From: Terramyces sp. JEL0728
Lineage: Eukaryota > Chytridiomycota > Chytridiomycetes > Rhizophydiales > Terramycetaceae
Assembly: GCA_027603945.1 (NCBI GenBank)
Contig: JADIIU010000041.1
Span: forward strand, 1-64,000
Length of the DNA: 64,000 bases
Direction of reading: 5' to 3'
In this document: piece by piece, positions 1-64,000 of the stretch
Position numbering within the stretch: the first letter of the stretch is position 1
Layout of the letters: each line of letters starts with the position of its first letter
The notes under the pieces: model-generated
What the model was told of the DNA's origin: nothing
What the model saw: the letters and a program-made list of their open reading frames with translations, nothing else
Databases searched by the model: none
Made by a program: the position numbers and the translations under genes

Positions 1-3000
1 TGAACTGACTTTTCTCTTTGTTCCACCACTGAGACTACCACAGTTGACATTTTTGTACATTTCAATCCCAAATGCTTGCAGTAAACGGCTAATATAATCG
101 TCTAAAATATCATCTGGAAGGCCATTTAACGAGCAGAACAGCTCCAAATGCTCAGTAACAGTCATATTTGGAATCAACAGATCATCGAATTGCGGACAGA
201 ACCCAATTCTTTTGATAACATCAAATTTTTGAGAGGCGCAATGCAGTCTATCCATATGGATTGATCCAGCAGTTGGAAGGGTTTGGGCTGTGAGCATGCT
301 TAAAGAAGTCGTCTTTCCGCACCCATTAGGCCCTAACATGGCAAACATTTCATTTTGTTCAATTTGCAAATTAAGGTTGTTCACTGCGGTCTTAGTTCCA
401 AACTTTTTGGTCACAGCATTGAAGGATACAAAAGAGCTGTTAGTTGCCGGGATCCTTTTGAGGACCAAATGCTGTAATTCAATTGCGGCTAATATCACAA
501 CATAAAGAACCAAATATCCTACAGTAACAGTAACAATTTTTGCAGTCGATGGTAAGGTAATGCCTGCTCCATAAAAAATAGGTATAGAAAGAGATAGAGG
601 TGTGGTTGTAGGTAAATAAAACAGCACATTGACAAAAATTTCATATTCATCTGGACCCCATTGCTTTACACCACCGACAATTACCGCAACCAAAATGAAC
701 AGAAATCCAAATATACGGATACCAGTAGCAATACCACGCACCATAGTCCTTGGAAATAGTGAGCCTAAAACAGCAGACAGGAAAATCGGCTGAAGCAGGT
801 AAAAGAACACTGCAACCGGGGCAAAATTGTGACTAGGCGGAACTCTTGCTGTGATAAGAATGTTAAATGGCAATGATATGAGAAAAGATCGAATCAGCGT
901 GACAAACCAATAGCTCTTCAACGGTACACCAGTCGAAAGCAATAGAAACTTGATTTTTTCCCGAGAGTCACACACATCATCTGACAGAGTAACAACCAAA
1001 TCAGAATATACAATGTACATGAAAAATGCACAAATAGCAACCACTGTAGGACTATTTGGATCGTCATCCGAAATTGTTACATATTCAAAGACGGTCGATA
1101 CCAAATTGTCGGGGAAAAGAGTGCTCAGCGACAGTAATGACGCACCAGCAAACCCTCCGTATACTGTAGTTACATAGGCAGTTCCATTTTTCACCAACTT
1201 GCCGACAGTGATTGTTGAGCCAGTGGTATTCAAAGGCACAAAAACACTAGAATATTGAGATATCAAATCTGCAATGTCCGTTTCCAAGACAAATCCACTA
1301 GGCATTAATCTAGATAGTAGAGTCGGCATTGAGACCGATACAGAGGTAGTGGACTGTGTAGCGAATCTTTGATAAAGCACGTAAAAGACAATTGTAAACG
1401 ATATTGTAAGTATCATGCGGAGAACGATGGTTACAATCGATGCCAGAAATCGCTTGAATTCAAATTTAAAGAAAAAGATAGTCTTGGCCACTGTGGATGG
1501 ATCAGCAAACGAATCCATGCGATCTAATAACGCCTTTTGCTCTTCCTTTGAAATAGTTATATCTTTCTCATCCACAAGCTCCTTGCTGGTAAAAATTTCT
1601 TCCAAACCATTCTCCTGGACTGAAAATGCCACATAGGAATTCTTTAGGTGCACATCCTTTTCAAATTCAGATAATATTGATAAATCTTTGGCCGCAATTT
1701 TGAAATCATACAATTGGTCATTGGACTTTACACATGTAGCATAAACTCCTTTGTTCTGAAACCAATCTTCAAATATTTCCTTTTGAGTGTTGACAGTTGC
1801 CTTTTCCACGGATAGAGTATATCCAGTGTTGTAGATTTGCTTCAAGTATTCCGATGAACCAACACAAACGACTTGTCCAAGGGTTAGCATAGCTTTTCTG
1901 TCACAAAGTATATCAGCTTCGTCCATGAAATGGGTACACAGCAGAATGGCTCTATTTTCCTTTTTCTTCATCAAAAAGTTCCAGATAACACGCCTAAAGT
2001 TAATCCGGTTTACCTATTCTCTGGATCAACGCCAGACGACATTTCGTCTAGGACAACAAGCTCTGGGTCGTTTATGAATGCCAAAGCGACACCAAGCTTT
2101 CTCTTTTGCCCGCCCGAGAGTGACTTTGATGCCATATCGAGCATTGGATGGGGAATTTGTAACCCTTCAACAATATCGCTAATTTTACCCTTGATTTCAT
2201 TTGCAGGAACCCCACGCATCAACCCAAAAAAGAAGAGATGCTCTCTGGTTGATAATTCATCAAAAAGAATATCCACTTGTGAACAGATACCAGTTCTTTC
2301 GGAGATGTCAAATCTTTTTTCTTTTGCGTCAAGTCCAAATACTCCAATTTTCCCGTCAGTAGCAGAAAGTACCCCACAAAGAATATTAATTAAAGTACTT
2401 TTTCCAGCGCCATTATAGCCAAGCAAACCAAATATTTCTCCTTTAGCAAATTCCAGGGATACATCAGACAAGGCTTTAGCAGATGCACCATCGTATAATT
2501 TGCTGAGATTTGAAATTTGAATCTTATTTGTCGAATCTCCTGAACTGACTTTGCTGTTTTCAACCTTTGGAAGCAGATGCTCTCTTTCTGCAACTTCTGG
2601 AACTTTTTTGGTTTTGAAAAATTGAGAAATAGGGTAGTGTAACGGCCTGGTTTCATCTTGACTAACTTCTAACCAATTCAAGTATATTCCGATCAGGAAC
2701 AGGGCGATTGTGTAACTACACGATGTGATCACAAGGGTATTCACTGAATTAATGTACGGTTACCTGAAGGAGCTGTAAACGGAACAGAAGTGTTGGTGAA
2801 TCCTCTTCCACTTGGAGAGAATCCGGAAACATACGTATAAACAGCAAGTGCGACTCTAGGATTGATACAAAGCAAGATAATCCCCCAATCAGGAATATTT
2901 TGCACAAGTTGGGATTTAAACACGGATGAAAAGACACCAACAAGAATGTAGACAGTGTATAACAGTATCGCACTACGAATGTTGGGTGCCCTTTGAGCAC

Positions 3001-3877
3001 AAATCCAAGTAAAGCCAACATATGCATAGCACGAGCTAAAAAGCAAAAAGAAGAGCGGGCCAGCAGCAGATGGTGTTTTCCAGTAGTCTAGGAACATGAA
3101 CAAGTTCCATCCGGCGTAAATCGTCGAAAGCAAAATTGGAAAGAAAAATGTTCCAATATAGTAGGACGACCTTCGTATACCTAGCATTAACATAAGATAA
3201 CCTGTCATGAACAGTCCAAACTTCAATCCTTTGGTCCTTTCTTCAATCATATTGGTAACCATGATAGATGATAAGGCGAAAAAGAAAACATCAGAAAAAA
3301 AGTCTGTAGAAGAAGCAAGCATAGCTTTCAAATCAATATCAATTGCTTCCTTGACTTGGAATCCCGCTCCTTTGTCTTGCCCCAGATAGCTGTCAATCAA
3401 AAACTTTGTCTCCACTACAGCATGAATATCAGGACTGAAATTGCAAAATTGGCTACTGATACAAGTCCAAAGGTTTGACAAACCATCGTTATTTGCATAT
3501 AGAGTATAGTCATAATGTTGGTTTGCGGAATCGAATTTGGAAAATGACAGTAATAGAGAATTATTTTTTGAAGATTGGATATAAGCGGGCCTAGTCGTAG
3601 TGACAATATTGTATTGGTTAATTGCCGGCTGTAACTTTGCCATTGCCGTGGTGTCCAAGTTTGATGTATCCAAATACAGCGGTAATGGGTTAATATCCAC
3701 GGTGTCTTTGATCTCTGGTATGGAATCGAGTGTGCCTGAGAGAGCTTTCAACAAAATATAAGACAGTGAACCATAAATGAAGAAAAATACTATAGCATAT
3801 TTTGTTTTTCCTTTGGCCAACTGGCGAGTAAAGTTCAACCGAATGATCGCTGCTGTTTGGGTGTAAAATGAAATCAT
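1..3877 (-). CDS. ABCA-family full transporter, copy 1 (3' end cut by window edge)
   Basis: Exons (minus) 3202-3877, 2764-3180, 2014-2743 and <1-1993, with introns of 21, 20 and 20 nt. The layout is TMD1-NBD1-TMD2-NBD2, as in lipid-exporting ABCA proteins. The N-terminus has one TM helix, a large non-cytosolic loop and then a TM cluster. NBD1 (about residues 430-620) has Walker A GYNGAGKST, signature LSGGQKRKLG, Walker B ELVVLDEMSSGVDP and H-loop LLCTHFMDEAD. NBD2 has Walker A GPNGCGKTT and signature LSGGTKRKVSS, where the window ends. The first intron is 21 nt with no in-frame stop. I call it an intron because the paralogue at 4336-8708 has a stop-containing intron at the same codon. This is a tandem paralogue in the same orientation. 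The family is certain; the substrate is unknown. Confidence 0.93.
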
Positions 3878-4335
3878 CCTATTAGCTGCAATTCCAGTTC
3901 CGCCTTTATATGTGAATGGTGTTTTTAAGTTGAAGTTTGCGAGCCCAATTCTCGGTTAAGCCACTAGTGTGGCAGAAGACCGGAAAAGAACAAGAGAATA
4001 GCTAGGCAGCATGCCGTTATATTCTCATCAATAAAGGGCTGAGTTGGGATACCAAATTTCCACTTCAAATGGTCCTTTGCGATTTTCAGCGCAATCCAAA
4101 GTCAAACATGGCGAAGCTCCTTCAGAGTCATTGGTTCACGATCAAATTGCGGTAAGATTTGGTATCTGTACAGCCAGAAAGAGGATGCTTAGTTATCATT
4201 TCAGCTTGCATTAAGCCAAACAAATGTACCAGCTCTCCAAGAGATTGAAGGGCAAAGATCGTTTTCCAGAGATATCCATACGAACAGCAGTGTGTGAAAG
4301 GTATTGGTACAAAAAATATCAGAATCTATGGTTTA
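3878..4335. other. Spacer between the tandem ABCA genes
   Basis: This 458-nt stretch separates the start of ABCA copy 1 from the stop of ABCA copy 2. It should hold the promoter of copy 1 and the 3' end of copy 2. I see no gene or RNA in it. A plus-strand open frame at 4224-4409 runs into the copy 2 coding region antisense and resembles nothing. Confidence 0.6.
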
Positions 4336-7300
4336 TTAAACTGTTTCTGTGGTTGATTTCTTTACGATATCCAAAAAGACATCCTCCAAAGCCATTCTTC
4401 CAACAGTAAAGTTCTTTAGATGGCCCTGGCGCTTCAAGTTGGACAATCTGGATACGAGTACTCCTAATGGTAGCCGGAAGTGTTTAAAGTTTGCAAGAAC
4501 ACTTTCACCAACAACATTTTCAATTTCCACCTGGGCTGTTTGATCGTCAAAGAAGAGAGAGTTGTAGATAAAGTCAAGCAAGTTACCCGGCCGACTGTTC
4601 AAATGCAGTGTTGCCTTATAGCCATTGGCAGATGATCTAGTCAATTCATATTCAGTTGCGCAAGCTTGAAGGTTCCCGTCAGTCATAATAGCGATTTTGT
4701 CACAGTAGGAAGTTTCACTGATATAGTGAGTGGTCATGATTGTAGTTCTGTTAACGTTCAGCAATCGAACAGTATTCCACAACTTTTGTCTGGCCAGTGG
4801 ATCTAGCCCAGTAGATGCTTCATCCAACACAACGAGTGATCTAGGCAACATGACTGCAATGGCTGAACTGACTTTTCTCTTTGTTCCACCACTGAGACTA
4901 CCGCAGTTGACATTTTTGAATCGTTCAATCCCAAATGCACGCAAAAGATTGGTAATGTAGTCTTCGGATCTTGCTTCGGGAATTCCATTCATGGCGCAAA
5001 ACAAATGCAAGTGTTGGCCAACAGTCATATTAGCAATCAACAAGTCGTCGAATTGCGGACAGAATCCAATCTTCTTAATCGCGTCCAGTTTCTTTGATGC
5101 TACATGAAGGTTATCCATGTGAATTGAACCCTTAGTTGGTAGAGCTTGAGCAGTTAGCATGCTAAGCGAAGTAGTCTTTCCACATCCATTTGGTCCAAGA
5201 AACGCAAACATTTCATTCTTTTCAATTTGCAAGTTCAAGTCGTTGACAGCTATTTTCTTTCTTCCAAACTTTTTGGTAATCGAGTTGAAGGACACAAATG
5301 ATTTGCTGAATGGTGCAATATTTCTGATAAACAAATGTCGCAGTTCAACCCCCAAGAACACCACGAAATACAAAATGGACCAAAAGACGGCATTAGCGAG
5401 CATCTGTGTATCAGAGAGCACCTCTATGTCTGCCATGTCAGCAGAGGTTACAGACAGTGGTAAATATGGGCTGAGAACCACATTCAGGTAATGGAGGTAT
5501 TTGTATTGGTTTGGTCCCCAGTTTTCTATTGAGCCCACGAGGATAAAGATCAGAAATACCAACAAACCAAACAATCGTATACTTTGGGTAATACCACTGA
5601 CTGAATTTTTGGCAAAGAACGAACCAATTAATGCAGCAAAGAACACTGGCTGTAACAAATACGCAAAAGCAGCTAAACCACTTATATGGTAGGATGAAGG
5701 AAGTACAACTACTGTCAAAATTAGGAATGGGGCAACGATAAGCAGTGATCGGATGAAAATGACAATCCAGTAACTTCCAAGCGGTACTCCAGCAGAAAGC
5801 AACAAAAACTTGATTTTTTCCTTTGATTCAGCAATGTCATCTGTTAAATTCACCAAAAAATCAGCATAGAGCAATTGCAAAATAATTATAACGACACTTT
5901 CGTAGGAAAAGGTATTACCAGTTACATTTGCGTAGTATTCGAAACTAGAAGTAATCAGACTGTTCTGGAACAAGTTGCTCATTGCAAGGAATGGAGCCCC
6001 GTCATAGTCGCCGAAAACTGTCAAGAAAGTGCCAGTAGCATTTGAAAGTAGTGTGCCCATGGAAACAGAAGACCCTGTGGAATTTACAGGTACAAATCGC
6101 GATGGGTTGTTGCTAATCAAGCCGTTGATGTTTGTTTCCAGAACAAAGCCGTTTGGCAGCAATCTGGTGTAGATATCCTTGTCAAAAGATACCTTTTCAG
6201 TTAAAGTATAGCTAGCGCCAAATCCTTTGATAAACACCCACAGCAAAATTACCAATATCAAAGAAATTGACATGCGGAAAAAGTTTTCAACGAATGAGGA
6301 AACTAACCGCTTCATTTCAAAATTCAGGTAGAACCCTGTTTTGGCCGCAAATGATGGTTCAACAAAAGATGACATGTGGTTGAGTAGCGTTTGTTGTTCA
6401 TGTGCCGTGAGAGTGATATCTTTCTCGTCGACCAATTCTTTGTTGGTAAAGATTTGCTCCAGACCATTCTCTTGGATAGAATAGGACCGAATTGCACGCT
6501 GTATTTCGCCATCTCTTTCAAAGTCCACCAGCGCACTTAGATAATTGGCACCGATTTGATATTCGACTATCTGCTTGCTGGTTTTCCCAATTGTTACTTT
6601 TATATTTCTATTTCTGAACCACGATTGGATGCTTGGATCAAAGGAAGGATCTTTCTTTTCGACGGATAGCGTGTATCCGGTATTGTAGATTTCCTTCAAA
6701 TACTCTGATGAACCAACGCACACCAACTGGCCCAGTGTCAGCATGGCTTTTCGATCACACACAATATCTGCCTCATCCATAAAATGAGTGCACAACAATA
6801 TTGCTCGATTTCTCTTTCTTTTCATCAAAAAGTCCCAGATAACACGTCTAAAGTTAATAATTTTTACCTGTTTTCTGGATCAACACCAGATGACATTTCG
6901 TCTAGGACAACCAACTCTGGATCGTTTATGAATGCCAATGCAACCCCGAGTTTTCGCTTCTGTCCTGCCGACAGCACCTTTGATTGACTATTTAGCATGT
7001 GCTCGGAAATATGTAGTTCTCGCACGATTTCATCAATTTTTTGCTTGATTTCACTTGACGGGACTCCTCGCATTAATCCAAAAAAGAACAGGTGTTCCCG
7101 AGTAGTCAAATCATCGTATAGAATGTCAATTTGGGAGCAGACTCCGGTTCTTGCTGCAATTTCGTATCTGCTTTGTTTGGCATCAAGGCCAAATACATTA
7201 ACACTTCCTTCAGTTGTGGATAGTACTCCGCAAAGGATGTTGATAAACGTACTTTTGCCAGCCCCATTGTACCCCAATAATCCAAATATCTCCCCTTTTG

Positions 7301-8708
7301 CAAATTCCAGAGAAACATCTGTAAGTGCTTTGGTTGTTGCGCCAGCATATAATTTACTGAGATTTGAAATCGTAACCGTTTCCAAAGGATTGGTTCCTTT
7401 TGAAGTTCCAAGTTCGATTTTTGCATAAACCTTGGTGCGTTCTTCAACCACGGCAACTCTCTTTTTAAAGAATCTTGAAATTGGATAATGAATTGGTCTG
7501 ATTTCATCTTGGCTGACTTCTAGCCAATTGAGATATGCGCCAAACAAAAATATGCCAATTGTAAAGCAAACTGTTGAGGTGATAACACTATTCACTACAT
7601 TAAAGTTAGCTACCTGGTGGGGCACTAAATGGGATGGAGGTCGAGCTGAACCCTTTGTCATTGCCAGTGATCTGTGAAACCGCAAAATATGTAGAAAGAC
7701 CAAATCGCGGAATAACACAGAGTAAAAGTGTGGCCCAAGATGGAATATACTGAAGAATTTTGCTACTCTCCATAAAGGATACAAATCCTAACCCAATATA
7801 TACCGTACTGATAAGATTGGCAGCGCGGACATTCGGAGCCAACTGAGCACAGATCCAAGCGAATCCAACATAGCCATACGAAGAGCAAAATACCAGAATG
7901 GCAAGTGGCCCGGTTGCAGAAGGTACATCCCAAATATCGACAAACATGTATAACGTCAAAGCAGAAAACAGAGTAGCAATAAGCATCGGAATGAAAAACA
8001 ATCCAATATAATACGAACTTCTTTTTACACCTAAAATTAACGGTTCTTACCAGTCATGAACAATCCAAACTTTAGACCTTTGGACTTTTCTTCGAAAAGA
8101 GCATAAATGATCATTGGTGATAGGGCAAAGAAGAAAAAGTCTTTAAAAAAGTCGACTCCTACCAATCCTTGGTTTCCCGTGAATGAAATTTCCAGCATTA
8201 CCAATTCAGGAGAGTTGTCACCGCGCAATAACCTGTCAATAATATTTTTTGTTTCTGCAATTTCCTTCATACTAGGACTAAACATGCAGCTGTTAGGAGT
8301 GATGCATAGCCAGAGGGAAGATAGACTGTCTGATGTTTGCGATGTAGTCAGAGTATAGTCGTACTTTTGGTTAGCAGCATCAAATGAATTGAACGTAAGC
8401 AACAGAGTTGGTTCCTTTTTCGAAATAAAATCTGCCCTAGTAGTTTGCTGTATTTGAGAATTTGCAGTGAGTTTGGAGATAGTAGCACTGTCTAAATTCG
8501 TTGGGTCGAGGGAAATGTCCATAGGAAACACTTTGTGAGATGGAGTAGATGAAACTTGATGGCTAATGGACAAAGATTTGATGACAATGAACGGCAGTAG
8601 GGAAAGGGCAAGCAGGAACAATAGAGCGTACTTGATTTTCCCTTTTACTATCTGTCTAGTAAAATTAAGCCTTATAATTGCTGCAGTTTGGGTAAACCCG
8701 GAAATCAT
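4336..8708 (-). CDS. ABCA-family full transporter, copy 2
   Basis: Exons (minus) 8051-8708, 7614-8030, 6868-7594 and 4336-6847; introns of 20, 19 and 20 nt; 1437 residues. The three introns sit at the same codons as in copy 1, and exon 2 is 417 nt in both, so the pair arose by tandem duplication after these introns existed. TMD1-NBD1-TMD2-NBD2. NBD1 (about 430-610) has GYNGAGKST, Walker B ELVVLDEMSSGVDP and the H-loop. Its signature reads LSAGQKRKLG, with Ala for the first Gly of LSGGQ, unlike copy 1. NBD2 (about 1120-1320) has GPNGCGKTT, LSGGTKRKVSS and SLVVLDEASTGLDP. The length is short for an animal ABCA protein but normal for protist and fungal ones. It probably moves lipids or lipid-like molecules across a membrane; the substrate cannot be read from sequence. 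Confidence 0.93.
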
Positions 8709-9065: not shown

Positions 9066-10857
<1,792 letters not shown>

Positions 10858-48200: not shown

Positions 48201-48356
48201 GAGCCAAGACCTAATGCCTACATTCCAGAAACGACTGGGCTTGGGCAATTGCCTATTCCAAAGCCATATGGTGAGCACTCTCCTTTCAAACCTCAAGAGC
48301 CTGGTGCGCAGTTGCGCCATTACAAGAAACCAAGTGTTTTGCCAATTGAAATTTAA
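45241..48356 (+). CDS. CCDC146: CCDC146/MBO2 axonemal-centriolar coiled-coil protein
   Basis: Twelve exons: 45241-45253, 45276-45447, 45468-45666, 45686-46020, 46041-46341, 46361-46750, 46772-46939, 46960-47079, 47100-47699, 47721-47948, 47968-48137 and 48158-48356. Eleven introns of 19-22 nt; 964 residues, close to animal CCDC146. Almost entirely coiled coil. Family landmarks: [60 protein letters not shown], and the conserved C-terminus [24 protein letters not shown] and [16 protein letters not shown]2, the Chlamydomonas protein, is needed for normal flagellar waveform. The first exon is just 13 nt. No exon skips the frame, so the gene appears intact. Confidence 0.93.
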
Positions 48357-48526
48357 TGATCTTATGCAATAAAGGAAATGTATTATATTTGGAGATTCAG
48401 ATCAGGTCCATTTACTGCCAGTATTTGCAAATGAAATAGTTGTCCGAAAAAGTTTGCAAAACTAAATGATTTCACTTCCTAATCAACAAGTCGATTTATT
48501 GCAAACCTTTAAAAAAGCAGTCTCTA

Positions 48527-50471: not shown

Positions 50472-53182
50472 ATGGGGACAATTCGCAAAAATAATTCGAT
50501 AGACATCAACCAAATGGATGATGACCAGTTATCTCAAATGCTAGGATTCGATGTCTCTGATTCGTCGGCACTGGAGAAGGCTATTTTTACAAACATCAAC
50601 GAGGGAAACAGAGTAGCAATAGTAAATATATTTCAAAACTACCCCTCATCCACTTCCATTTTGCAAATATTACTAACCACTACCTATCCAAATAAAGACT
50701 ATTTCTATACGCACGACCCAGAGGTCATAAGAGACGCAGACGAATTGTTGGGAGAAAGGTAATCGTAAATAACAAAGCTTGGAAAATTTAAATGCCATTC
50801 AGATAGCGTGTATTTTAGGAGAGGAAGATTTAGGTATGGATATACTGCAGTTTGTCAACGACTTTACGGAAGAAATCAATGCCAAGAAAATCTTGTATGA
50901 ATTCATGGGAAGAATATGGGGCGATGGAAATACAACTTTGCATCTAGCTTCTTTTATGGGGATGAGCGACTTGGTTCAAATGATGATCGAACTTGGAGCG
51001 GCTGTTGGTAAAATCAATAATAGAAAGTACAAACCTGTGGATTGTGCTGGAGACGATGTGACAAGGACTGTGTTTGAGACTGCTATCGAAAGTAACAGAT
51101 AGCTAATATTAGTTGACAGAGCGAAAAGGAAAAACGTTGGGAATTCTCCAAGTATTACAGATTTAGTGACAAGCTCTCCTCAAAGTAGCCAGATACTATC
51201 CCCACAAGCTATCAAGTCGCCTAATGACACTTCACCATTGACACCTAGCAAAGGCGTGGACGAGTCAAACAAAGGCCACAGCAAAAGCTCGTCTTTAGAT
51301 TCTGGCCGCAGATCACCTGCAGGTTCGAAATCAAGAAGTAGTAGAGCCGGGACAGTGTCTTCCGCACAACCATTTAAAATTGATTCCCTCCTCCGAACGG
51401 ATAGTTCGCAGAGTAGTTTACAAAAGAAACAAAGAAAGAACGTAAAGTTTGATAAAGGAGTGTTGCTGCTACATTTGTGTCAACATGGTGATAGTACTCA
51501 AGAATGCCGTGATCAAGTTTACGATTGCTTAGGAATTACAGAAAATGAAACCAACAAATCGGCTTTCGATGTAAACAACTTATGCCTGCCTCAACAATGG
51601 CTCTCACCTCTGCACTTGGGTTGTTCGCATGGCAGACTAGAAATTGTAAAAATACTTCTTACGCGAACAAATGTCGCAGTGAATATTAGAGATAAAGAAG
51701 GATGGACCCCACTTCACTGCGCATCCGCAGAAGGCCATGTGGAAGTAATCAACCTGTTGGGAAGATGCCAAGGCTCTATATATGACACTGATCAATCTAA
51801 TAAGGAGTGGACGTATGTATTAGATGGACCAATAAATTTGGTGCCAGTGAATGATGATGATGATTTACCTGAAGACGTAGCGCTAGAATCCAGAGCAAAA
51901 GAAATCAAAGCGATCTTTAAAAGTAGATATTGCTGATTTAGGTCTTTTAGAAAAATATCCTCCAAAGGAAGCGGAAGTCAACAATGAAGAGGATGAAGAG
52001 TCAGATAATGTAGAAGATGTTGCTCCATTGAAAAAATCGTTTAGCGATAACTTGAAACGAATAGGATCTGTGATGAAATCATCAATGAGACACCAAAAGC
52101 GTGAGGAAGAGCAAAATGACGACGAAGAATCGCCAGAAAGCAAAAACCCATCAAAACAAAGCGAACCTACAATAATACCCGCTCCTGTAATAGCTGCTAC
52201 AAACTTACAACCCACAGAAAAGTCGATTCCTTTAAAAGCAGATCCGCTGCAGGAAATCACCAAAGAAGTTATTAATTCTAGCGGTCCAAACCTCAAATCT
52301 GAGAACAGAAATCGAGTCGCAGAGCCTATCCCTGCAAAACCTGCGGAGCCAGTTGCTGATTTGCCAAAAAAGCCTGTAATTTTGGGAAAGGAGTTAAAAG
52401 CAACCGCAGTGTCAATAGAACCAAAAAACAATTCAGAATTGGAAAAAGTAAACGCGAGGGACACTATCATTCAGCCCAAACCACAAGCAGAAAGTATTCC
52501 TATCCTCCGTCCCAAAGACGAACAGAAAACTTCCAATAGCAAGAATACTGTATCGATACCTTTATCCAATACCCCAAAAGTAGAAACAGAAATAAGTTAT
52601 GAACCAGAAATAATCAAAACTCCAGTAAAGAATATCCAAAAAACAGGTAGCACATCAGAGCTTAAAAGCCCATTGAGAATCGAAATAGTTCGGGCTGAAG
52701 AAGAACAGCAATCACAGTTATCATTTGAGCAGTGGAAGCTTGCAAACAAACATATCATGCTAGCTTCACCGATTGTTCCGAAAACACCTACAGATGGTTC
52801 TCGAAAAGAAAGATTGTCATATTTACGAAGCAAAACAAAACCAAATAACGAATTAGACTTGGAAAGTGCAAAGCATTCTGCGGAACAAATGAGACGTCCG
52901 GTAGAGCTGCAAAGAAGGTCATCAAAGAGTAATAGAGACAAACCTATCCTTGATCAAAGTGGATTTGGCGCGTCGTACTACATGAATGAACAAGCGGCTC
53001 CTGGAAAGGTGGAATCGATAAAGAAGGTGTTCACTGTGGAAAAGGAGAAGAGCAATGGTAGTCTGGAAAATCTCGCTACCGAAGGTGCTTTGCCTAGAAT
53101 GGTTAGTTCTGTCAAAGACAAAATCAAAATGTTTCAACCTTCAGCGCAGAAAGTAACCGTTCCATCTTCAAAGTTAAAATAA
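50472..53182 (+). CDS. Ankyrin-repeat protein with a PP1-docking motif
   Basis: Exons 50472-50758, 50778-51091, 51113-51922 and 51942-53182; introns of 19, 21 and 19 nt; 883 residues. Ankyrin repeats occur in two groups. The first includes GDGNTTLHLASFMGMSDLVQ (about 150-185). The second includes LSPLHLGCSHGRLEIVKILL and EGWTPLHCASAEGHVEVINL (about 370-425). Between them lie a Ser-rich linker and RKNVKFDKGVLLLHLC, where KNVKF fits the RVxF motif used to bind protein phosphatase 1 just before ankyrins, as in MYPT/PPP1R12. The C-terminal 440 residues are acidic-basic, Pro/Lys-rich and disordered. A myosin-phosphatase-like targeting subunit is a reasonable guess but not proven. Confidence 0.75.
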
Positions 53183-53232: not shown

Positions 53233-56200
53233 ATGAATAATCAACAGCTGAAAACCTGGATTCACGATTCCTTGATGAAAATGACGGGAATGTCTGAAGA
53301 AACGATTGTAGATTACTTTGTTGCTTCAGCCAAAAAGGCCAAATCCCCGGAGCATTTACTGAAAACTTTGCAAAAGGTTGCGGATATTCAGAACCAGGAA
53401 TTTGTTCAACAGCTCTACGGCAAATTCCCTCACCCAAATGAGCAAACCTATCGCAAGCAGCAAGAGATTGAGCAAATCAAACTGCTGGAGAAAAACAAAC
53501 GATTTGCATTGATCGAAGCAGAGCCAGAAAATTTCGAGTTAAAAAAGTCAAACAAGAAGCGAAAATTCCGAAAAGAAGACTTGAAAGAAAAGGAAAAGGC
53601 TTGGGAAGAGCCTGAAGAAGAATACTATTCAGAGGAAGACGAAGCGGAAGATGAAAGGGATAGGGATATCAGAGAAAGAGATGAACTTGACGAAAGAATC
53701 AAAATGAGAGACCTAGAGGGCAAACAATATAATGACAAATCTCAAGTCCTTGATGAAAAGGCTCGCTTAAGAAAGATTATTGCAGATGACAAGGAGGCAA
53801 GAAAAGAGATGATGGGATCTATTAGAGATCGGGCTAGATATGAATACGTAAAAAAGAGAGAAATGGACAAGATCAAGCTACTTCGACAAGAAATCAAAGA
53901 TGAAGAATTTCTATTCCAAGGAGAACGACTAACTGAAAAGGAAAGGAAAGCCCTGGAGATGAAAAAAATGATTCTTAGACTGGCGGAGGAAAGATTGTCT
54001 CTAGTTGACAAGAACGATGGATATGTCATGCCAGAGGACTTTATAACCGAAAAAGGAAAGCTGGACAAGAAAAAGCAGGAATCAGTGTTATATAGCAGAT
54101 ATGAAGAACCAACAGAGAAGATTGTTTCTGAGCAAGACCAATGGGAAGAGAATCAAATACAGAAAAATGTTTCCAAGAAGCAGAAACAACAAGACGAGCT
54201 GGATTTCGAATATGTGTTTGACGAGAAGGAGCGGGTGGAATTTATCATGCAGAAGGCTTTGGAAATGCAGAATAAGGAAGCAGTCCCCCAAATCAGTGCT
54301 GCACAACAGAAACAGCTCTCGATCATGGAAGTCAGAAAATCACTGCCAATGTACCAATTCAAAGATGACCTCTTGGATGCAATTAATAAATACCAAACAC
54401 TGATTATTGTTGGAGAAACAGGATCCGGAAAGACGACACAGATTCCTCAATACTTGGCTGAAGCTGGCTATACCAAGGATGGAAAGAAAGTTGGTTGCAC
54501 ACAGCCTAGAAGAGTTGCGGCAATGTCGGTAGCTGCTAGAGTAGCCGAAGAGTTTGGCACAAAATTAGGTGCAGAAGTAGGGTATTCCATTCGTTTTGAA
54601 GATTGCACCTCGGAAAAAACGATGATCAAGTACATGACGGATGGAATGCTTTTGCGAGAGTTTCTTACTGAGCCAGATTTGAGCTCCTATAGTTGTATTA
54701 TTATAGATGAAGCACACGAACGGGCACTGCACTCGGATTTACTATTTGGGTTGGTCAAGGATATTGCCAGGTTTCGGCCAGACTTGAAGCTGTTAATATC
54801 TAGTGCAACAATGGATGCAGAAAAGTTTTCAGAATATTTCGATGACGCACCGATATTTAATATCCCAGGAAGAAAGTTTCCTGTGGAAGTTTACCACACT
54901 GCAAACCCAGAAGCGAATTATTTGGCTGCAGCAATCACTACAATTATGACGATCCATATTACGCAAGATAAAGGAGATATCTTGTTGTTTTTGACAGGAC
55001 AAGAAGAGATAGAAAAAGTCCACGAAAGTTTAACTCAAATTTGTAAATCACTGGGAAGCAAAATTAAAGAGCTTATTATTTGTCAGATTTACGCCAATTT
55101 GCCCTCGGATTTACAAGGAAAGATTTTTGAACCAACCCCAGAAGGCGCAAGAAAGGTGGTATTATCAACAAACATTGCAGAAACGTCAATCACTATTGAT
55201 GGTGTGGTTTACGTGATAGATCCGGGATTCTGTAAACAGAATAATTATAATCCTAGGACGGGTATGGAATCACTTGTGGTGGTACCTATTTCAAGAGCTT
55301 CTGCTAATCAAAGAAAAGGAAGAGCAGGTCGTGTTGGCCCAGGAAAATGTTTCAGACTCTATACCGCATGGGCATACCAAAACGAATTGGAGGAAAGTAC
55401 AGTTCCTGAAATTCAGCGAACCAATATGTGCTCAGTTGTATTGCTGTTGAAATCTTTTGGGATTGATGATTTGATGAGTTTTGACTTTATGGATGCACCT
55501 CCAGCGGATACGCTAATTAGATCTCTGGAACAGTTATATGCCCTTGGTGCTTTGAATGATCGTGGGGAGCTAACCAAATTAGGTCGTAGAATGGCGGAAT
55601 TTCCAACTGACCCTATGCTAAGCAAAACCCTCATTGCAGCAGAAAAATACCAGTGTACCGAAGAAATAGCTTCAATCATTGCAATGGTGTCTGTTGGCAA
55701 TAGTGTATTTTACAGACCAAAGGACAAAGTTGTCATGGCTGATCAAGCTCGAAAGTCGTTCAACAGACCCGGAGGGGATCATTTTGCTCTCCTTGCAGTA
55801 TGGGATACTTGGGTAGAAACTGGTTACGCTATGCAATGGTGTTACGAAAATTTCATACAGTATCGAACCATGAACAGGGCGAGAGCAGTAAGAGACCAGT
55901 TGGTTGGGCTGATGGAAAGGACGGAAGTGAAATTATTATCCAATCCTGACACTTCAAACGTGGTCCCCATTAAAAAGGCACTTACAGCTGGGTTCTTTTA
56001 CCATACTGCAAGGCTGCAACGTTCGGGGGATTCGTATCGCACGATTAAAAGCCATCAGTCCGTTCTAATTCATCCTTCTTCTACTCTGTACGGTGAATTA
56101 CATCGCTGGGTGCTGTATTATGAACTAGTTCTGACATCAAAAGAGTTTATGCGGCAATGTATCGATATTCAGCCTGAATGGCTGATGGAAGTGGCCCCGC

Positions 56201-56268
56201 ACTACTATCAGCAAAAGGAGCTTGAAGATGATTCAAACAAAAAGCTGCCTAAAGGGTCTAGAAATTAG
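53233..56268 (+). CDS. PRP2: Spliceosomal DEAH helicase PRP2/DHX16
   Basis: Single exon, 1011 residues. Prp2/DHX16 remodels the spliceosome just before the first transesterification. The N-terminus ([33 protein letters not shown]) matches DHX16, followed by a charged coiled region to about 360. RecA motifs: [16 protein letters not shown], Ia [80 protein letters not shown]; then winged-helix, ratchet and OB domains ([13 protein letters not shown]). It has no intron, unlike most genes here. A 21-nt stretch at 55562-55582 mimics an intron perfectly but encodes conserved residues. Confidence 0.96.
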
Positions 56269-56356: not shown

Positions 56357-59300
56357 ATGGCTGAACGGAGGCAGCGCAGAATACCAAGAAAGGCTCCAGA
56401 GGTACAAATGCATTGATTTCAGGATTCAAATTTAAGAGGGATTGTAATGGAGGAAACTTTGAATTTGGACAGAACTACTAAAAGCACAAACAACTCTATG
56501 GACGATTTAAATGCTGAATTGGCGGATATTTTAAGCGATAGTTCTTCCAGAAGACTTCCTAGGGAAAGGAGACAAGTAACTGACCAGAGTGGGGGTCGTG
56601 AGCGGACGAGGTCTGAGGGCAGAACTGTAATTTATGATTAATGAAAGAGAAGACCAACTGAAGAACGACAAAAATTATTGGGAATTGCAGACAGCCAGCG
56701 GATGCAAATACCTTTAAATGACAGCAAATCCAACGACGATTCAGCGCGACGGCGGCGGGATGTGGAACGCCGAAATGTTCCAGACACTCGTAGGAATCTT
56801 GATAAGAGTACACTGAGAAGCACAGATTCATATTCAAGACGACGGGAAGATTCGGAAAAGTCAATTAACCGACGTGATGACATTTCTAGTCCGAGAACTT
56901 TAGTGGAAGACAAAAGAGATATCGGAAAAGGCAATACATCACCGACTACGCCGAGGAGAAGTTCTCTTGCTTCTACGACATCAGGCTTCTTAAGTAAGGC
57001 TGTATCTTTCAAAATTGGGGCTTTATTTAATGAAAACGATCACACCGACAATGCTACAAGCTACACAAATGATAGTACGATGCCAGATTTGACCGATCCT
57101 GCCACAATATATTCCCTGTTAAGTCAAGCCAGTTTGGATGCTGAAGGTACCTGATATGTTGATTGCAGGATTCCCAATTCTTAACCCTGAAAGATATCAA
57201 GAGCAGAAGAAAAAACTCGTACAGATCACAAATACATTTTCATCCCTTCAGAACAAACTATCCCTTGAATTTAAAGTCAAAGAAGCTACCGAGAACATCT
57301 TGCGGTTCAATGCAGAAGACAAGAATCAAATAGCAGAAGCGCGAGAGCAATTGCGAAGGTCAGACCGAAAAATGAATGACATTTCGAAAGGTTAAGGAGA
57401 TTATTAATGCAGATTTGTGGGTTGTGGTTGGCGATTTGATTGATGCAGAGCGAGGTGTACTAAAGCATTTAGCTGGGACTCTAAGATGGTATTTATAAAA
57501 GTAACTGTTAGGAGAGTGGAGGAGGCAAAGCAGGAAATGTCGGAGGCACCTACCCTTAAAGTTCGTCCTGATCAAGAAACCAAAAAGAAATTGATGTCTG
57601 CTGAAGAGAGAGTTCGAGAATTAGAAGCCCAAGTAAAGGTGTTAAAATCAACAGTATCCAGATTAGAATTTGAACAGCAGCCATTGCGAGAATTAGCTGC
57701 AGATTCGCAGCGAGAGGCTAGGAAGGCAAGGGAAGACCGAGATGCAGTTAAACAGTCGGTTAAAGCTTCTCCAGACTCCCAGCCAAGCTCCTTAGAATTC
57801 AATCGCATCAAACTGGATTATGCAACTTGCAAGGCAGAATTGACAGATGTGAAAGAAGAACTTGCAGCAATTAAAAATTCTCAGGCGAATTTGCAAATGC
57901 AACTGGAGCAAGATCAGCAACTTATTCAATCCAAGGATCGCACAATTGCAAACTTGCTCTCTGAATTGGAGGAGGCTACAAACAAAGTCGAATTTTCCAG
58001 AGCCGGAGGTAGATTAATGGACAATACTCCTGGAAGCAACGCATCGCTAGGAAGAATGCTCGGACGAAAGAATAACGGCGAAAATAAAGTTGCCGAGAAT
58101 GAACGAATGAATAGTATGATGGGAACTCAGTTGAAAGAAGCGGTTTTGGAACGAGAAAAGCTGAAATTAAAACTGGAGCAAGAAATCGAAAGGTCAAAGG
58201 ATTTGGAGATGAAATTAAGGAATGCAGGTTCGAGGAATGATGACGATACCGACCAAGAAGACAATAGCTTTTCAAGAAGCAGAAGTATTGCCTCACCTCG
58301 TTCCCGAAGAGCCAGAGGAATGGAAAGTATTGACGGCAATTTGGAAAGTAAGGTTGCAGAGTTGGAGCGGAAATTGCGTGAAAAAGGAAATGGGCTTGAT
58401 CCAATTCAAGAAAGACAGCTGGTTGACATGCAAAGAAATATTGAGAATTATTTGGGAATTAACCGTTCTGATTTCAAAATTTCAAACTTGAATGACAAAC
58501 TTGGAATGTTGATTGAAAATAATCAAATATTGGAAAGAAAATTAAAGAATTCAGAAACAGAGTTGGCCATATTGGAAGATACCGTTACCAATCTGAAGAC
58601 AAAAAGCAATCGAGCACTGGAAAATAACATGAAATCTTCTGGAATGGACGAGCTCAAAAGGCTAGAATTGGAATACAAAGATCTATCCAATGCGTATGTG
58701 GATGCAGAGAGAAAGTTGGCGTCAATGGCCGAGTTGAAAAAACTATCAGACCAACAGGCAACCAAGATTTCTAAATTCCAAACTGATAGGGATACTGATT
58801 TTAAATTGCACGAGGCTCAAATGGAAGATTTAAGGACAAGTATGAAGAATGAATTGCAAAAAGTTAAAGACAAGCATGAGAGTGAAGTGAGTCGATTAAA
58901 AGATGATCACGAGCGTTCCATTCAACATTTTAGAGATCAGACTGGAAGGGAAAATGATGATCGAACCAAAAAGCAAACTAGGGAAATGGAAAATACCAGG
59001 GCTATGTGGGAAGAAGAGGCAAAGCAGAGTTTAGAGAAGAAAATAAAGCTTTTATCGGAACAGCACAAGTCAGAGCTGGAAGAAGTCGCTGCATTGGCCG
59101 ATTTAGAAAAGACACGCTTCAAGTCTTCTTTCCAAAAGGAACAAATCGAATCCAAAGCCAGGTTAGAACAAGCTGAGGAAGCGCTGGTCCTAGCAAGACA
59201 ACAATTTTTTATTGAAAAAGAAAAAATTCAAGAGCAAGTCGAAGTTCTGGAAAAAGACATCACAGTGCTAAATCAAAAGGCAAAGACTGCGGCTGATGAC

Positions 59301-60185
59301 TGGAGTGGAAAGAAATTGGACTATGAAAATATTATTGATAGTTTGCATGACGAAATCGATCAATTCCAGCAGCAAATTCAGGATGTGAATCGTAAGTTGG
59401 AAATCAAATCGCGTGAATTGTTGGAAATACAAGGAATACAAGAGATTGAAGTCAAGAAAATTAAATCAGACTATGAAGCGGAAATTTCAAACCTTTCTTC
59501 ACGCATTTCGGAATTGGAAAACTCTGAAAACGAGCTGCAAAGATCGTTGCAAGAAAATAACGCAAAACTTCAAAACTCACAAGGAGATACCGAACAAATC
59601 AAAGCCGACTTTGAAGCCCAGAAAGCAAAACTACTGAAGGATATCGATAGAGCCCAAGATGCAGTTGGCGACACCACAGATCAACTGGAAAGAGTACAAA
59701 GATTACTCAGAGATGTGAATGGCGATGTGGATAGGTATAGGAAACTGGCCGATAGCAGGGATGAAGAGTTGATTACTGTTAAGCGCCAAGTAATTTGCTA
59801 TTTAATATAGTTGCGGCAAAAAGAAAAAGAGTTGACAGAGGGGGTAAAGTCTGGATCGTCGGAATCGTCCAATGTTCGGAAAATTTTAGATCAAAAAGAT
59901 ACGGAACTGGATAATTGCAGAGCGGAAATCCGAAGCTTGAACGGGGAAATTGCTACTCTTAATAGGAAACTGGAAGTAAAAGACCGGGAAATTGAAGAAG
60001 CAAAGTCCCAAATGCGACGCAATGCAGGGGCAGACCAGGATGAACAGACGCAGGAACTCAATCGCATGCAAGTCATGTTACTAGAACTTAAAACCACCAG
60101 GGTAGATCTTCTCGAGCAGTTGGATGATGCACAGCATGAAGCGGAAATGCTCCGCAACGAACTCAAGGCATTGAAGGCCCAATAA
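56357..60185 (+). CDS. Uds1-domain long coiled-coil protein (fungal septation family)
   Basis: Exons 56357-56401, 56423-56626, 56648-57146, 57169-57390, 57413-57488, 57512-59789 and 59811-60185; introns of 21, 21, 22, 22, 23 and 21 nt; 1232 residues. The first 240 residues are basic, Ser/Arg-rich and disordered. Residues about 245-350 match the Uds1 (upregulated during septation) domain: LSQASLDAEGFPILNPERY, LQNKLSLEFKVKEATENILR, ISKDLWVVVGDLIDAERGVL KHLAGTL. From about 360 to the end it is continuous coiled coil, broken by a Ser-rich, acidic patch near 600. Uds1 proteins are known from fungi, so this supports a fungal host. Likely a cytoskeletal or septum scaffold. It has the longest ultrashort intron (23 nt). 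Confidence 0.8.
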
Positions 60186-60332
60186 TTTCACGTTGTATTG
60201 TAGTAAAGAACCAAGATAATATACTCACTCATAGACATTTATTCATACTTTATTGTTGACCCAGCAGCCTACCTGTCATTTTGAGCAACCCAATGCTGTC
60301 TTCGGATATATAGAGATTCTGGATTAGAAAAG

Positions 60333-63300
60333 TTATACCATATTCATTGTTTGAAGTTTTTCAATTGAGCCAATTGTCTGCACTGTTTCTTGAACCGCCA
60401 TCCCTTTCCTAATGCTTTTCAATAGCTGGATGCTGGACATTTCAACGATATCTGCATTAATAGTAAGAGTACTGAATAATAAGCCAATCTTGTCCTTGAT
60501 GTACCCAACAGATTCCGAAATCTTGATTCGATACATTTCTTGCCTCGCAGCCAAGCTGGCTTCTGCAGATAACTTTTCATTTTCAATTCTCGAGACTTCA
60601 TTGATTTCCTCGATTGGTACTTGATCCAATTCAGCAATCTTATTTTCAATATTTTTCAATTCATTGGCCAGATGCAAAATCTGATCTACGCTGTAATTCA
60701 GTAATAAAGTGTATACTAAAGATTGTAATATTGGTTCTATTGTAAACGCATTGATACCTTTCGTTTGAATTTTTAAGGTCTGAGGCACTGGCTTAACTTG
60801 CAGAAAGAGGAGCACATTCCTTGAGATTTGCTCTGAAAGGTGGAGCACTTCTTCAGCAAAAACAGTCCGCTTTGTTCCGGCAACAAAGAATGGCAAGTAA
60901 ATGTGGTCTTTAACCCTTTCAACTTCTTCAGATGGTTCTATTTTGTTGTGCCACTTGGTTCCAGAGAAAATCTCAAGCACATGAGTGAGAATTGCATCAA
61001 AAGTGTTCAAGCCTGGACCGGGAAACTAAAGTTAATCATAATCTACTGGAATATGAACAAAGTTGAGTTGATGGCCAATCCATGCAAAAATCCCAGTGAT
61101 CAACTTCAAATGTTTCATAGAGGACAGAGTAAGGAATTCGCACGAGTTTTTGATCAGAGAAAGGATGCTTCCGTGGTGGGCAAGTAGGAAAGATATCGCT
61201 TTCTTTACAACTGTAACATTTTCGGAGCTGAAATGCGACAATGTGATGGCAATCAATTCCAAAGTATGCTTTATAATGCCATTGTACAAGATTACGGTGT
61301 TATCTTCAAACATAGAGCCTTTGCTTATATCATATTTTGGTATTTGGTCCAGGAAACGGCACTCGGTAAGTGTTTCCAATAGCTTGTGCTCTAACAGTCC
61401 TTCTGCTCCAGTTTTAGTTTCCGCAAATCTTTTCAAGAAACTCATTTTGGTTTCAAAGACATATCTGTTGACATCATTATCAGATCCTATGGTCAAAGTC
61501 GGTTACTTGTATTCATGATTACCCCGCAGAGGTTCTTGTCATCTATTTGCTTGATAGTTTGGATGTAATGTCCCAAAAAATTTCTATGGCCCAGGAAGCT
61601 GAGCATTGGGTGAGGAGAATGGAAAGAAGCTGTATAGTACCAGTTTCCAAGAGCACACAGCTCGGTAAGGGCAGTGAATGCGACAGTCTGCCAAATATAT
61701 TCAGAATCTGAAGCATCCCTGCAAATCTGTTCCCAGAAATTGCTCGACTCCTTGAAAATAAACGCTGCTGCCTGATATAGTGCATCATCTACATTCCTGG
61801 ATTGATTTGGATTGCTTGGAGCGGTATCCGGCTTGATATAAGTGATTAATCTAATCAGTGCAATGTAATAGTTTCCACGGACGGCTGTTGAAGACGACTC
61901 GTTAGTAATGCAAGCTAAAATGCCCTTCAATATGTCAGAATGGAAGGAATCTAACGAGGCCATTGCAATGTTATCTTTGAACCCAACTACCAATCTTGAT
62001 TTCTTGTCTGAAAGCAATTGTGAAATTAAGGAAACTGCTACTTGCGAAGGTCCAGCTCCAACGCATAAGGTACTGGAATCGTGATTAACTTTTTTGAATA
62101 GTTTTGTCAAGATTTCAAATATTCTTCTTTCGAGCAATTCGGCAGGGAAAATATCAGAGTACGATTTCATTGAAATGCGAATGAGTTTACACCAAGCCTC
62201 GGCTACGTGGAATCTAGCATAATTTAGCTTTTGAAGGTTGTTTTTTTCAATAATTATGTTTAGTAGCTCTGATGCCTGGTCTTGTGCGGCTAATCTTCCA
62301 CCCGCTTGAATAATAGACCCGGCCTTTTCCATAAAGTCTATACGCATTAAAAAGGCAAAATAAATTGCCGGGACATTGAAGATTTCAGCGCCGTGTTCAT
62401 CTGATTTCATGAAATCAGCCAAAGCAAAATCATTGAATACTGTCTGGGTAAGATCTGTAATTGGCATTTGCGTCCCCCTGAAATTTAATGAATCCAGAAT
62501 TGAAACAATTTTAGTGTTGATTTGTTCATATTCGCCTTGATAGTCTTCAGAATCCCAAAGCATTCCATTGACACTAGACATATTGAACAACAAGCCTATA
62601 ATTCTCTGGCTAGTAGCACGCTGTTCAGACAATGCTGTGATGTGAAGCTCGAGAGCTAATATTTGCAAAAGCCAGGCGCATTGGTGTAATCTACTCACTT
62701 GGACATCAATATGTTCAACACTGTCGCTGTCATCAACAGTTTTGAAGAGTGAAATTTGTTTTGCAAAGAAATCGCACTCATTTCGAAGGAATCGAAGTGC
62801 TTGAGTGCTTGTCTTCTGGTCGAACGAAACCAAGTAAACTAAATGCAAACACTTTTCAGCCAATTGTGGGTGGGTAATATAAATGGAATCAGAATCTTCT
62901 CTTGTCAGCATATTTACGATTACTGCCAAACAGGTATTTTCTTTAGATCTTGCTTCGATTTCCTTTGCTTTTGATTTCAACCCCAGCAAAAAGTGTGCAA
63001 TATTAGGGCAGGTCTGAATAGAGACATTCCAGATCAATAAATCCAAAATTACCAGCTTAATTGAGTGGTTATACGAATGTTTGAATGCTAAAAGGTCAAA
63101 GTGATAACCGCTTGCTGTTGGTTGCTGGAAATTCTCTTGTTCATTGTTTTCAATTCCATCCACAGTAAGCCTATCAATAAAGCCTTGTAAAATCTGGTCA
63201 CTGTACTTGGAAGCTTGAATAATCCCAACCAATCTGTTTGTATGTGAATCGTAAGAATCCACTCCTGAAAACAGGGGGCTTTGCGAGAGCAAGTTGATGA

Positions 63301-64000
63301 TAGACATTGCAATTAGACACAGTATTTCATTGTCACTATTAACGAAAGAAGTGACTTTCGTAATGGTTTCGGTGTGCGACGCCAAAAGAGTATCAATTCC
63401 ACTCATAGATATTGGTAATCCTAAAATAAACGCTTCTTGGTGTCCTACTATGGCAGGACATACAACTTCCAGGAAAGTTTTGTGCGTATTGAACATGAAA
63501 TAAATGATTTTCAAAGATTGGAAAATTGCATCCTTAACCAACAAAAAATTGGACTCGTTTTCAATAATTTGGAATATTTTGAGGGCAAGTTTCGATCCTG
63601 ATAGCACTCTGGTAATAATTTCAAATCCAGGCGACAATCCCAATATTCTTAGGGGCGATAGATTGTTCCCAACATCTTGAATAGGATTTGTGATATAACC
63701 TAGTACTGGCTCCATTTCAAATTGTTCAAGACAGTGGTTGAAAATTTCCAAGCATTTTGTGCAAATCTTCCATTTTTCTTTCCCATCTGCAAATGGACGC
63801 TCATCGATTTTAAGGAATATCTCGTCGATAATAAATGCAATGTAAGGTCTAATTCCAGGTAGTCTATCTGGTTCGCCCAAAGTTTCATACATGCTTGTTG
63901 ATTTACATTGGACCAGATTGCAAATTAAATTAAGGAAGGCAAGTGTTTCTGGATATGTTTGTTGAATGGTTTCAATTTCTTTGATATCATACAACAGCCC
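60333..64000 (-). CDS. NUP205: Inner-ring nucleoporin NUP205/NUP192 (5' part beyond the window)
   Basis: Exons (minus) 61507->64000, 61047-61486 and 60333-61025; introns of 20 and 21 nt; about 1200 C-terminal residues present. Nup192/Nup205 is a large alpha-solenoid of the nuclear pore inner ring. The visible part is all helical repeats without signal or TM. Family-like stretches include TLAFLNLICNLVQ, RPYIAFIIDEIFLKI, EKWKICTKCLEIFNHCLEQ F and FLEVVCPAIVGHQEA. The 5' end lies past position 64000. It converges with the Uds1 gene, with 147 nt between stop codons. Confidence 0.85.

Follow-up and report, generated by a model that had tools for sequence, protein, structure and literature searches.

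The stretch of genomic DNA analysed here, positions 1 to 64,000 of contig C41 (hereafter the window, 64,000 nucleotides (nt) long), carries protein-coding genes whose introns are nearly all ultrashort, with lengths confined to a narrow range of 19 to 23 nt. The peak in the length distribution is real. With a probability of about 0.93, these segments are spliceosomal introns of the ordinary U2 type, belonging to a chytrid fungus and reduced to the minimum length that its spliceosome accepts; they are classed as canonical because they have GT-AG ends and a YTAAY-like branch motif, restore reading frames, align with homologues at the junctions checked, and tolerate insertions and deletions (indels). 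These sequence tests bear out the original prediction made for this window, which called the introns spliceosomal.

The length peak appears without any gene model. In particular, when GTR donors on either strand of the window are paired with the pattern YTRAY(N1-5)YAG, spacings of 19-22 nt occur 64 times, compared to about 12 expected from three order-2 Markov simulations; the counts at 19, 20, 21 and 22 nt are 22, 20, 13 and 9, versus simulated values of 3.7, 1.7, 3.0 and 4.0. Spacings of 16 and 17 nt are also above expectation (6 and 7 versus 2.7 and 2.0), and some long spacings are mildly elevated in the same test. Further, a codon-usage dynamic programme that accepted any GT..AG skip of 10-120 nt at equal cost placed 105 of 217 skips at 19-22 nt, with the remainder widely scattered; its gene models were not used for long introns, because it over-calls them by gene fusion. 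When the same programme was restricted to skips of 10-40 nt, with neither a length preference nor a branch motif, 127 of the 167 frame-restoring GT/AG gaps fell at 19-22 nt, while four decoy dinucleotide pairs showed no such peak (15 of 110, 6 of 80, 10 of 107 and 14 of 118; the largest single decoy bin held 15, at 23 nt). A test that used the donor profile only, with a flat prior over 13-28 nt and no branch or acceptor model, found 194 of 213 at 19-22 nt and 2 at 18 nt. The coding model in the last two tests was trained on earlier length-informed calls, and the decoys were run with the identical model.

The main intron caller was a length-informed coding model, applied to the window and to 20 other contigs (C1-C20), sampled at 10 kilobases (kb) apiece, which together form the 264 kb on which the statistics are based; the whole assembly holds 15,016,339 bases in 231 contigs. 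The window has a GC content of about 0.40 and shows no sign of a non-standard genetic code. Across these 264 kb of a 15-megabase (Mb) genome, 300 of 322 called introns measure 19-23 nt, several of the others being doubtful, and the proportion is 231 of 248 in the 20 other contigs. Within the window, the raw model called 74 introns in 29 genes: 20 of 19 nt, 24 of 20 nt, 17 of 21 nt, 7 of 22 nt, 1 of 23 nt, and long calls of 114, 152, 153, 228 and 230 nt. Inspection added three short RPB8 introns and one 19-nt intron lying within the 153-nt call, which was itself dropped. The 228- and 230-nt calls were judged by eye to be fusions of adjacent genes, 40513-40533 would join two genes (also by eye), and at 48623-48644 an alternative model requires no intron; all four were removed. 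The supported set contains 71 short introns (23, 25, 16, 6 and 1 at 19, 20, 21, 22 and 23 nt) and two long ones (114 and 152 nt), in close agreement with the 71 of 73 first reported, then as 21, 26, 17, 6 and 1. Homology was available for 27 of the 71 (CLF1 5, CFAP58-type 11, NOG2 3, RPB8 2, GUK1 2, Rab-like 2, DPCD 1, BAG 1); the other 44 come from the coding model, or from inspection where they were added. Short introns occur at a density of about 1.5 per kb of coding sequence.

Intron anatomy, splicing machinery and region copies

Among the 300 introns of 19-23 nt, the donor is GTA in 90%, GTT in 6% and GTG in 5%, and the acceptor is TAG in 187, CAG in 78, AAG in 31 and GAG in 4, matching the GTA starts (rarely GTT or GTG) and AG ends described earlier. 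A YTRAY motif emerges in 159 introns from the set called without a branch model. Its adenosine lies at intron position 14, 15 or 16 in 79, 53 and 16 of them (148 together) and never at positions 12-13, and in 137 the tail, counted from the adenosine to the final G, measures 5 or 6 nt. The tabulation of lengths and branch-to-AG distances that had been proposed as a check is thereby available for the 264 kb; it replaces the initial estimate of 10-13 nt between donor and branch with 13-15 nt. Within the common range (positions 14-16 and tails of 5-6 nt; 133 introns), the donor-branch span and the tail are independent (p = 0.41). The claim of independence is limited to that range because 4-nt tails avoid position 14: all seven accompany position 15 or 16 (Fisher p = 0.004), which speaks against wholly independent spans and looks as if a total of 18 nt were too short.

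Lengths, motifs, restored frames and the intron indels between two genomic copies are observed directly, and so are the lack of branch positions below 14 in the common class and the near-absence of introns of 18 nt. We infer that a spliceosome excises these segments in the living cell, and that the floor reflects its footprint. Position 14 would then correspond to the donor pairing with U1/U6, followed by a short T-rich linker and a branch site bound by U2/SF1, and a tail of 5-6 nt would reach from there to the AG. The sums agree with the distribution: 14 plus 5 gives 19, and 14-16 plus 5-6 gives the range of 19-22 nt. There is a donor-branch floor of 14 nt and perhaps a total floor of 19 nt, neither of which is ranked as primary. 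Introns would have shrunk to the minimum that this fungus's spliceosome accepts, possibly driven by deletion pressure.

The splicing machinery, where it can be read, looks ordinary. The U2 small nuclear RNA (snRNA) is present at full length (140 bits) and carries the canonical branch-binding sequence GUGUAGUAUCUG, so the YTRAY motif can pair with it. The 385 residues of PRP8 that were read, encoded across one intron of 22 nt and two of 21 nt, align with Pre-mRNA-processing-splicing factor 8 with no gap anywhere. Removing the short introns raises the U2AF65 profile score from 251.7 to 324.7 bits, with a cut-off of 310.3, and joins SF1-HH matches of 66.2 and 42.9 bits in pieces into one of 114.8 bits. 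SF1 has its helix-hairpin and KH domains, and genes for U2AF65, CLF1, DHX16 and PRP8 are also present. The changes in U2, SF1, U2AF and PRP8 that had been suggested as a match to such small introns are not seen in the U2 snRNA or in the readable parts of the three proteins. A search for RED_N, which passages of PMC6692369 link to short introns in human cells, gave no match; it was run without a positive control, and no conclusion is drawn from it.

Two contigs, C199 (L022) and C111 (L023), extended by L031-L034, hold near-identical copies of one region that differ by about 1%; either diverged haplotypes or a recent duplication seem to have been retained in the assembly. The copies were compared across several genes (C199:1-12000 against C111:30101-42141), with 1,516 poorly aligned columns masked and one 235-nt long call (3 substitutions) set aside. 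Exons show 68 substitutions and no indels over 7,319 nt, short introns 3 substitutions and 2 indels over 305 nt, and intergenic sequence 41 substitutions and 7 indels over 2,883 nt. Both intron indels consist of one base in a T-run between donor and branch, which yields 20- and 21-nt forms, and the two proteins with these introns are identical across their shared part. Judged by sequence, the pattern is the one predicted for segments that are spliced out.

Several results weigh against this interpretation of the segments as U2-type introns. The intron calls depend on a coding model trained on earlier calls, and 11 of the 159 branch motifs lie outside the common positions (9 at 8-11 and 2 at 18 or 20), perhaps as chance matches. 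The two intron indels sit in T-runs, where assembly error could mimic them, and coding constraint alone accounts for the lack of exon indels. Further, U6 was not found in the genome by its family, by two patterns or by a Schizosaccharomyces pombe U6 query, and a U1 family search of the genome gave no match; absence of U6, U1 or RED_N does not follow, because these searches had no positive control. The U6 gene may contain an intron, have diverged or be missing from the assembly. U6 family matches in L022 and L023 were rejected as protein-coding.

Two other origins for the segments can be compared with this evidence. That they are sequencing or assembly errors, or marks of gene decay that break frames by chance, is favoured by the many genes whose frames they break, an assembly in 231 contigs and two differences between copies in T-runs. 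However, the same GTA..YTAAY..AG arrangement and the same length of 19-22 nt recur across the window and the 20 other contigs, decoy dinucleotides give no peak, and the checked junctions sit where homologues continue, which leaves this explanation with a negligible probability. Removal by something other than a spliceosome, such as ciliate-style DNA elimination or another RNA enzyme, draws on the fact that the introns are near the lower size limit known for spliceosomal introns, as stated in passages of PMC10245619. It is nonetheless very improbable, given the GT-AG ends, a branch motif compatible with the U2 sequence, the genes for SF1, U2AF65, CLF1, DHX16 and PRP8, and an organism that is a fungus and not a ciliate.

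Longer introns and RNA cargo

Six longer introns were listed: 152 nt in NOG2, 114 nt in the BAG-domain gene, 215 and 123 nt in RPL7, 155 nt in RPL22 and 45 nt in RPS3. Protein continuity secures four of them, namely those of NOG2, the BAG-domain gene and RPS3 and RPL7 intron 2, which lies within Pfam Ribosomal_L30_N. RPL7 intron 1 (215 nt) and the RPL22 intron (155 nt; gene named by Pfam) directly follow the first codons and are placed by the coding model only. Unverified long calls were left uncounted (L004, L006 (158 nt), L008, L009, L011, L013, L016, L018, L020 and L021); the one of these that was folded, in L004, is unstructured (z = 1.3). Three of the six are:

35227-35378, minus strand: 152-nt intron of NOG2 with an H/ACA-like layout; protein junction LVPTWVT/EKW, ungapped.
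38726-38839, minus strand: 114-nt intron of the BAG-domain gene; junction within the Pfam ubiquitin match.
L005:3082-3204: 123-nt intron 2 of RPL7 (host gene by Pfam L30_N/L30), with a match to snR39.

The NOG2 intron has hairpins at 35314-35369 and 35252-35304 separated by the hinge AUAUUA, with an ACA at 35249-35251. Its 3' hairpin is unusually stable (z = -4.1; none of 200 shuffles as stable), while z is -0.8 for the 5' hairpin and -1.1 for the whole, and no small nucleolar RNA (snoRNA) family in Rfam matches it. The hairpin at 38742-38822 of the BAG-domain gene is very stable (z = -4.5; none of 200 shuffles as stable; z = -3.4 for the whole intron). RPL7 intron 1 folds strongly (z = -3.0). 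RPL7 intron 2 matches snR39 over its full length (1-95 of 95), guide included, with an E-value of 0.0046 and visible boxes C and D, and is classed as containing a predicted box C/D snoRNA snR39. A survey of fungi (passages of PMC8476143) reports intron positions in RPL7 and NOG2 kept in 82% and 72% of fungi, and yeast introns of these two genes that carry snR59 and snR191, respectively; the correspondence to the positions here is by gene only.

A predicted snoRNA within RPL7 intron 2, and strong folding in NOG2, the BAG-domain gene and RPL7 intron 1, would explain why some longer introns have been retained. Other observations count against such a role for cargo. The snR39 match scores 28.7 bits, below the Rfam gathering score of 40, and is the only snoRNA family match in any long intron; the fold of RPL7 intron 2 is not unusual (z = -0.3); the RPL22 intron shows no cargo (z = -0.9 over 150 of 155 nt, no relevant Rfam match), and neither does the 45-nt RPS3 intron. 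An Rfam scan of the window at gathering scores gave no match. The competing explanation, that ribosomal and ribosome-biogenesis genes keep long introns for regulation and not for RNA cargo or folding, is a serious contender at somewhat less than even odds. Five of the six listed introns lie in RPL7 (two), RPL22, RPS3 and NOG2, and those of RPS3 and RPL22 show no cargo; on the other side, RPL7 intron 2 matches snR39 over its full length, and the BAG-domain gene belongs to neither class and forms a hairpin of very high stability. Four of the six are consistent with cargo or folding and five with a ribosomal-gene effect, and the two are not separable. A more general form of the cargo reading is doubtful: intron length would read out the physical limits of the spliceosome, ordinary-looking machinery would impose hard floors (14 nt from donor to branch, 19 nt in total), the whole genome would be pressed against them in an organism that belongs neither with the relict nuclei nor with the reduced parasites, and introns longer than about 25 nt would be exempt as RNA-carrying or folding. 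If true, intron length alone would flag intronic non-coding RNAs.

Genes of the window and their homologues

The genes of the window and their short introns (lengths in nt in brackets) are as follows; support is from the coding model unless other evidence is given.

1-3877, minus strand: ABC-transporter-like gene, off the window edge; introns 1994-2013 (20), 2744-2763 (20), 3181-3201 (21).
4336-8708, minus strand: ABC-transporter-like gene; introns 6848-6867 (20), 7595-7613 (19), 8031-8050 (20).
9066-9702, minus strand: Rab-like GTPase; introns 9274-9292 (19), 9475-9495 (21); coding model and Pfam Ras.
10858-11742, plus strand: basic-helix-loop-helix-like gene (name by eye); intron 11328-11348 (21).
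13388-13838, plus strand: small unnamed gene; introns 13533-13552 (20), 13616-13635 (20).
13847-15991, minus strand: CLF1 / crooked neck; introns 14261-14281 (21), 14765-14784 (20), 15033-15052 (20), 15673-15692 (20), 15938-15958 (21); homologue alignment.
16246-17146, plus strand: CBS-domain gene; introns 16561-16579 (19), 16785-16803 (19), 16947-16966 (20); coding model, Pfam CBS.
18357-20039, plus strand: glycosyltransferase-2-like gene; intron 18880-18900 (21); coding model, Pfam Glyco_trans_2_3 in the 3' exon.
20090-20702, plus strand: DPCD; intron 20328-20346 (19); spliced protein matches Pfam DPCD at 7-187 of 189 (205.7 bits).
20902-21587, minus strand: zinc-knuckle-like gene (name by eye); introns 21029-21047 (19), 21163-21181 (19).
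21612-22371, plus strand: CIA30-like gene (name by eye); introns 21676-21694 (19), 22166-22184 (19); coding model and inspection.
22613-23111, plus strand: RPB8; introns 22625-22643 (19), 22717-22735 (19), 22983-23002 (20); inspection and RPB8 chains.
23952-28468, minus strand: ABC-transporter gene; introns 25686-25705 (20), 26491-26512 (22), 27036-27054 (19), 28138-28156 (19).
28888-33512, plus strand: ABC-transporter gene; introns 29873-29893 (21), 30854-30873 (20), 31224-31244 (21).
34111-36232, minus strand: NOG2 GTPase; introns 34371-34391 (21), 35538-35557 (20), 35807-35828 (22), 35963-35982 (20); homologue alignment.
36339-38281, plus strand: ABC half-transporter; intron 37986-38005 (20); coding model, Pfam ABC domains in the first exon.
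38290-39011, minus strand: ubiquitin-like and BAG domain gene; introns 38493-38511 (19), 38621-38639 (19); Pfam BAG and ubiquitin.
40550-41231, plus strand: guanylate kinase GUK1 (start codon by eye); introns 40659-40678 (20), 40926-40944 (19), 41154-41172 (19); match to guanylate kinase 1lvg for the first two.
43639-45052, minus strand: model fusing two genes; intron 44314-44332 (19).
45241-48356, plus strand: CFAP58/CCDC146-type cilium gene; 11 introns, 45254-45275 (22), 45448-45467 (20), 45667-45685 (19), 46021-46040 (20), 46342-46360 (19), 46751-46771 (21), 46940-46959 (20), 47080-47099 (20), 47700-47720 (21), 47949-47967 (19), 48138-48157 (20); alignment with seven chytrid homologues.
48466-49729, plus strand: unnamed gene; introns 48704-48725 (22), 48855-48875 (21), 49172-49191 (20).
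50472-53182, plus strand: ankyrin-like gene (name by eye); introns 50759-50777 (19), 51092-51112 (21), 51923-51941 (19).
53233-56268, plus strand: PRP2/DHX16 spliceosomal helicase; no intron called; protein similarity.
56447-60185, plus strand: coiled-coil gene; introns 56627-56647 (21), 57147-57168 (22), 57391-57412 (22), 57489-57511 (23), 59790-59810 (21).
60250-64000, minus strand: large gene, off the window edge; introns 60319-60338 (20), 61026-61046 (21), 61487-61506 (20).

In the CIA30-like gene, no intron of 19-23 nt closes the frame at 22021-22090, which may contain an intron of middling length or a base error. The ABC-transporter-like genes form two pairs, adjacent at 1-8708 and head to head at 23952-33512, with at least one common intron position (by eye); the arrangement looks like local duplication.

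All five junctions of the spliced CLF1 protein are ungapped in its alignment with Crooked neck-like protein 1 (8c6j), and the spliced DPCD protein matches its Pfam profile across the junction. Against the RPB8 chains, junction 2 is ungapped, a 2-residue gap lies near junction 3 and junction 1 is outside the alignment; in GUK1, residues 5-184 correspond to 7-186 of 1lvg, by match coordinates only, which encloses the first two junctions and leaves the third to the coding model. The spliced Rab-like protein matches Pfam Ras at 1-158 of 162 (195.9 bits) with both junctions inside, and one of the two short junctions of the BAG-domain gene lies within the Pfam BAG match of its spliced protein. Residues 15-463 of spliced NOG2, aligned with Nucleolar GTP-binding protein 2 (6lss), are ungapped at both 20-nt junctions and have a 2-residue gap just ahead of the 22-nt junction; the 21-nt junction is outside the query. 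The 11 junctions of the gene first named CCDC146 were checked by alignment with seven chytrid homologues, and the name is widened to CFAP58/CCDC146-type, its nearest annotated relatives being called coiled-coil or cilia- and flagella-associated.

Protein matches identify the source as Terramyces sp. JEL0728, or an isolate nearly identical to it, in the Terramycetaceae (Rhizophydiales, Chytridiomycota): it is a chytrid fungus, and neither a nucleomorph nor a ciliate. Such chytrids are free-living saprotrophs. Among the matches listed, the best for DHX16, at 95% identity, comes from Boothiomyces sp. JEL0838; an aphelid identity was rejected on this result. At 929 residues, the CFAP58/CCDC146-type protein is identical to HDV01_005188 of Terramyces sp. 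JEL0728; all 21 differences fall in residues 93-128, where the annotation picks other splice sites, and 14 residues are absent there and at a second junction. Of the 11 junctions, 9 agree with the present splicing. The JEL0838 protein has seven extra residues at the last junction, as from a retained 21-nt intron, and the 40 residues encoded between introns 7 and 8 are absent from the proteins of Boothiomyces macroporosus and of Globomyces pollinis-pini, the latter from another family, which would result if both tiny introns had been annotated, together with the intervening exon, as a single intron. The comparison suggests that the short introns are shared with these relatives. Standard gene finders had been expected to call such genes broken, which is not borne out: for this gene, the one compared, public annotations have most junctions right, while pieces are mis-spliced, retained or skipped. 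Its public records (one protein with an apparent retained short intron, two that skip an exon flanked by short introns and one mis-spliced at two junctions) serve as a warning for annotation.

Other ultrashort-intron genomes

Introns shorter than about 23 nt are attributed in PMC10245619 and PMC12316389 to heterotrichs, the Bigelowiella nucleomorph and mikrocytids. In the Bigelowiella chlorarachniophyte nucleomorph, many introns fall in a similarly narrow range of 18-21 nt (PMC10245619, in part), but that genome is a relict endosymbiont nucleus, and the present one is a 15 Mb chytrid assembly with cilium genes. The heterotrich ciliate Stentor coeruleus, as described in portions of PMC9505925, shares one narrow length class and a 5-nt tail past the branch adenosine; its introns, however, are 15-16 nt long with the branch at 10-11 and a weak consensus, compared to mostly 19-22 nt, positions 14-16 and a clear YTAAY here. 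The Stentor arrangement of 10 plus 5 has a tail equal to that of the fungus and a different donor-branch span. Mikrocytids also have uniform ultrashort introns, of 16-17 nt (PMC10245619, in part), but are parasites with a reduced spliceosome, whereas SF1, U2AF65, CLF1, DHX16 and PRP8 are present here, in a partial inventory. Paramecium and Nyctotherus are likewise dominated by one ultrashort class, of about 25 nt according to passages of PMC5014332; those are ciliates with slightly longer introns. Trichomonas vaginalis combines a long class of introns with a short one that reaches down to 23 nt, as given in part of PMC12316389, but few introns per genome, unlike the density found here.

Among the best-ranked literature matches, in which subscription papers and preprints are thinly covered, nothing was found on ultrashort introns in chytrids or in any other fungus. 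The fungus apparently adds a further member, independent of the others, to a known kind of ultrashort-intron genome, one described from relict nuclei, heterotrich ciliates and reduced parasites in passages of PMC10245619. A chytrid with cilium genes and ordinary-looking spliceosome parts would suggest that such introns require neither extreme genome reduction nor odd machinery, and it would allow the determinants of minimum intron size to be studied in a fungus.

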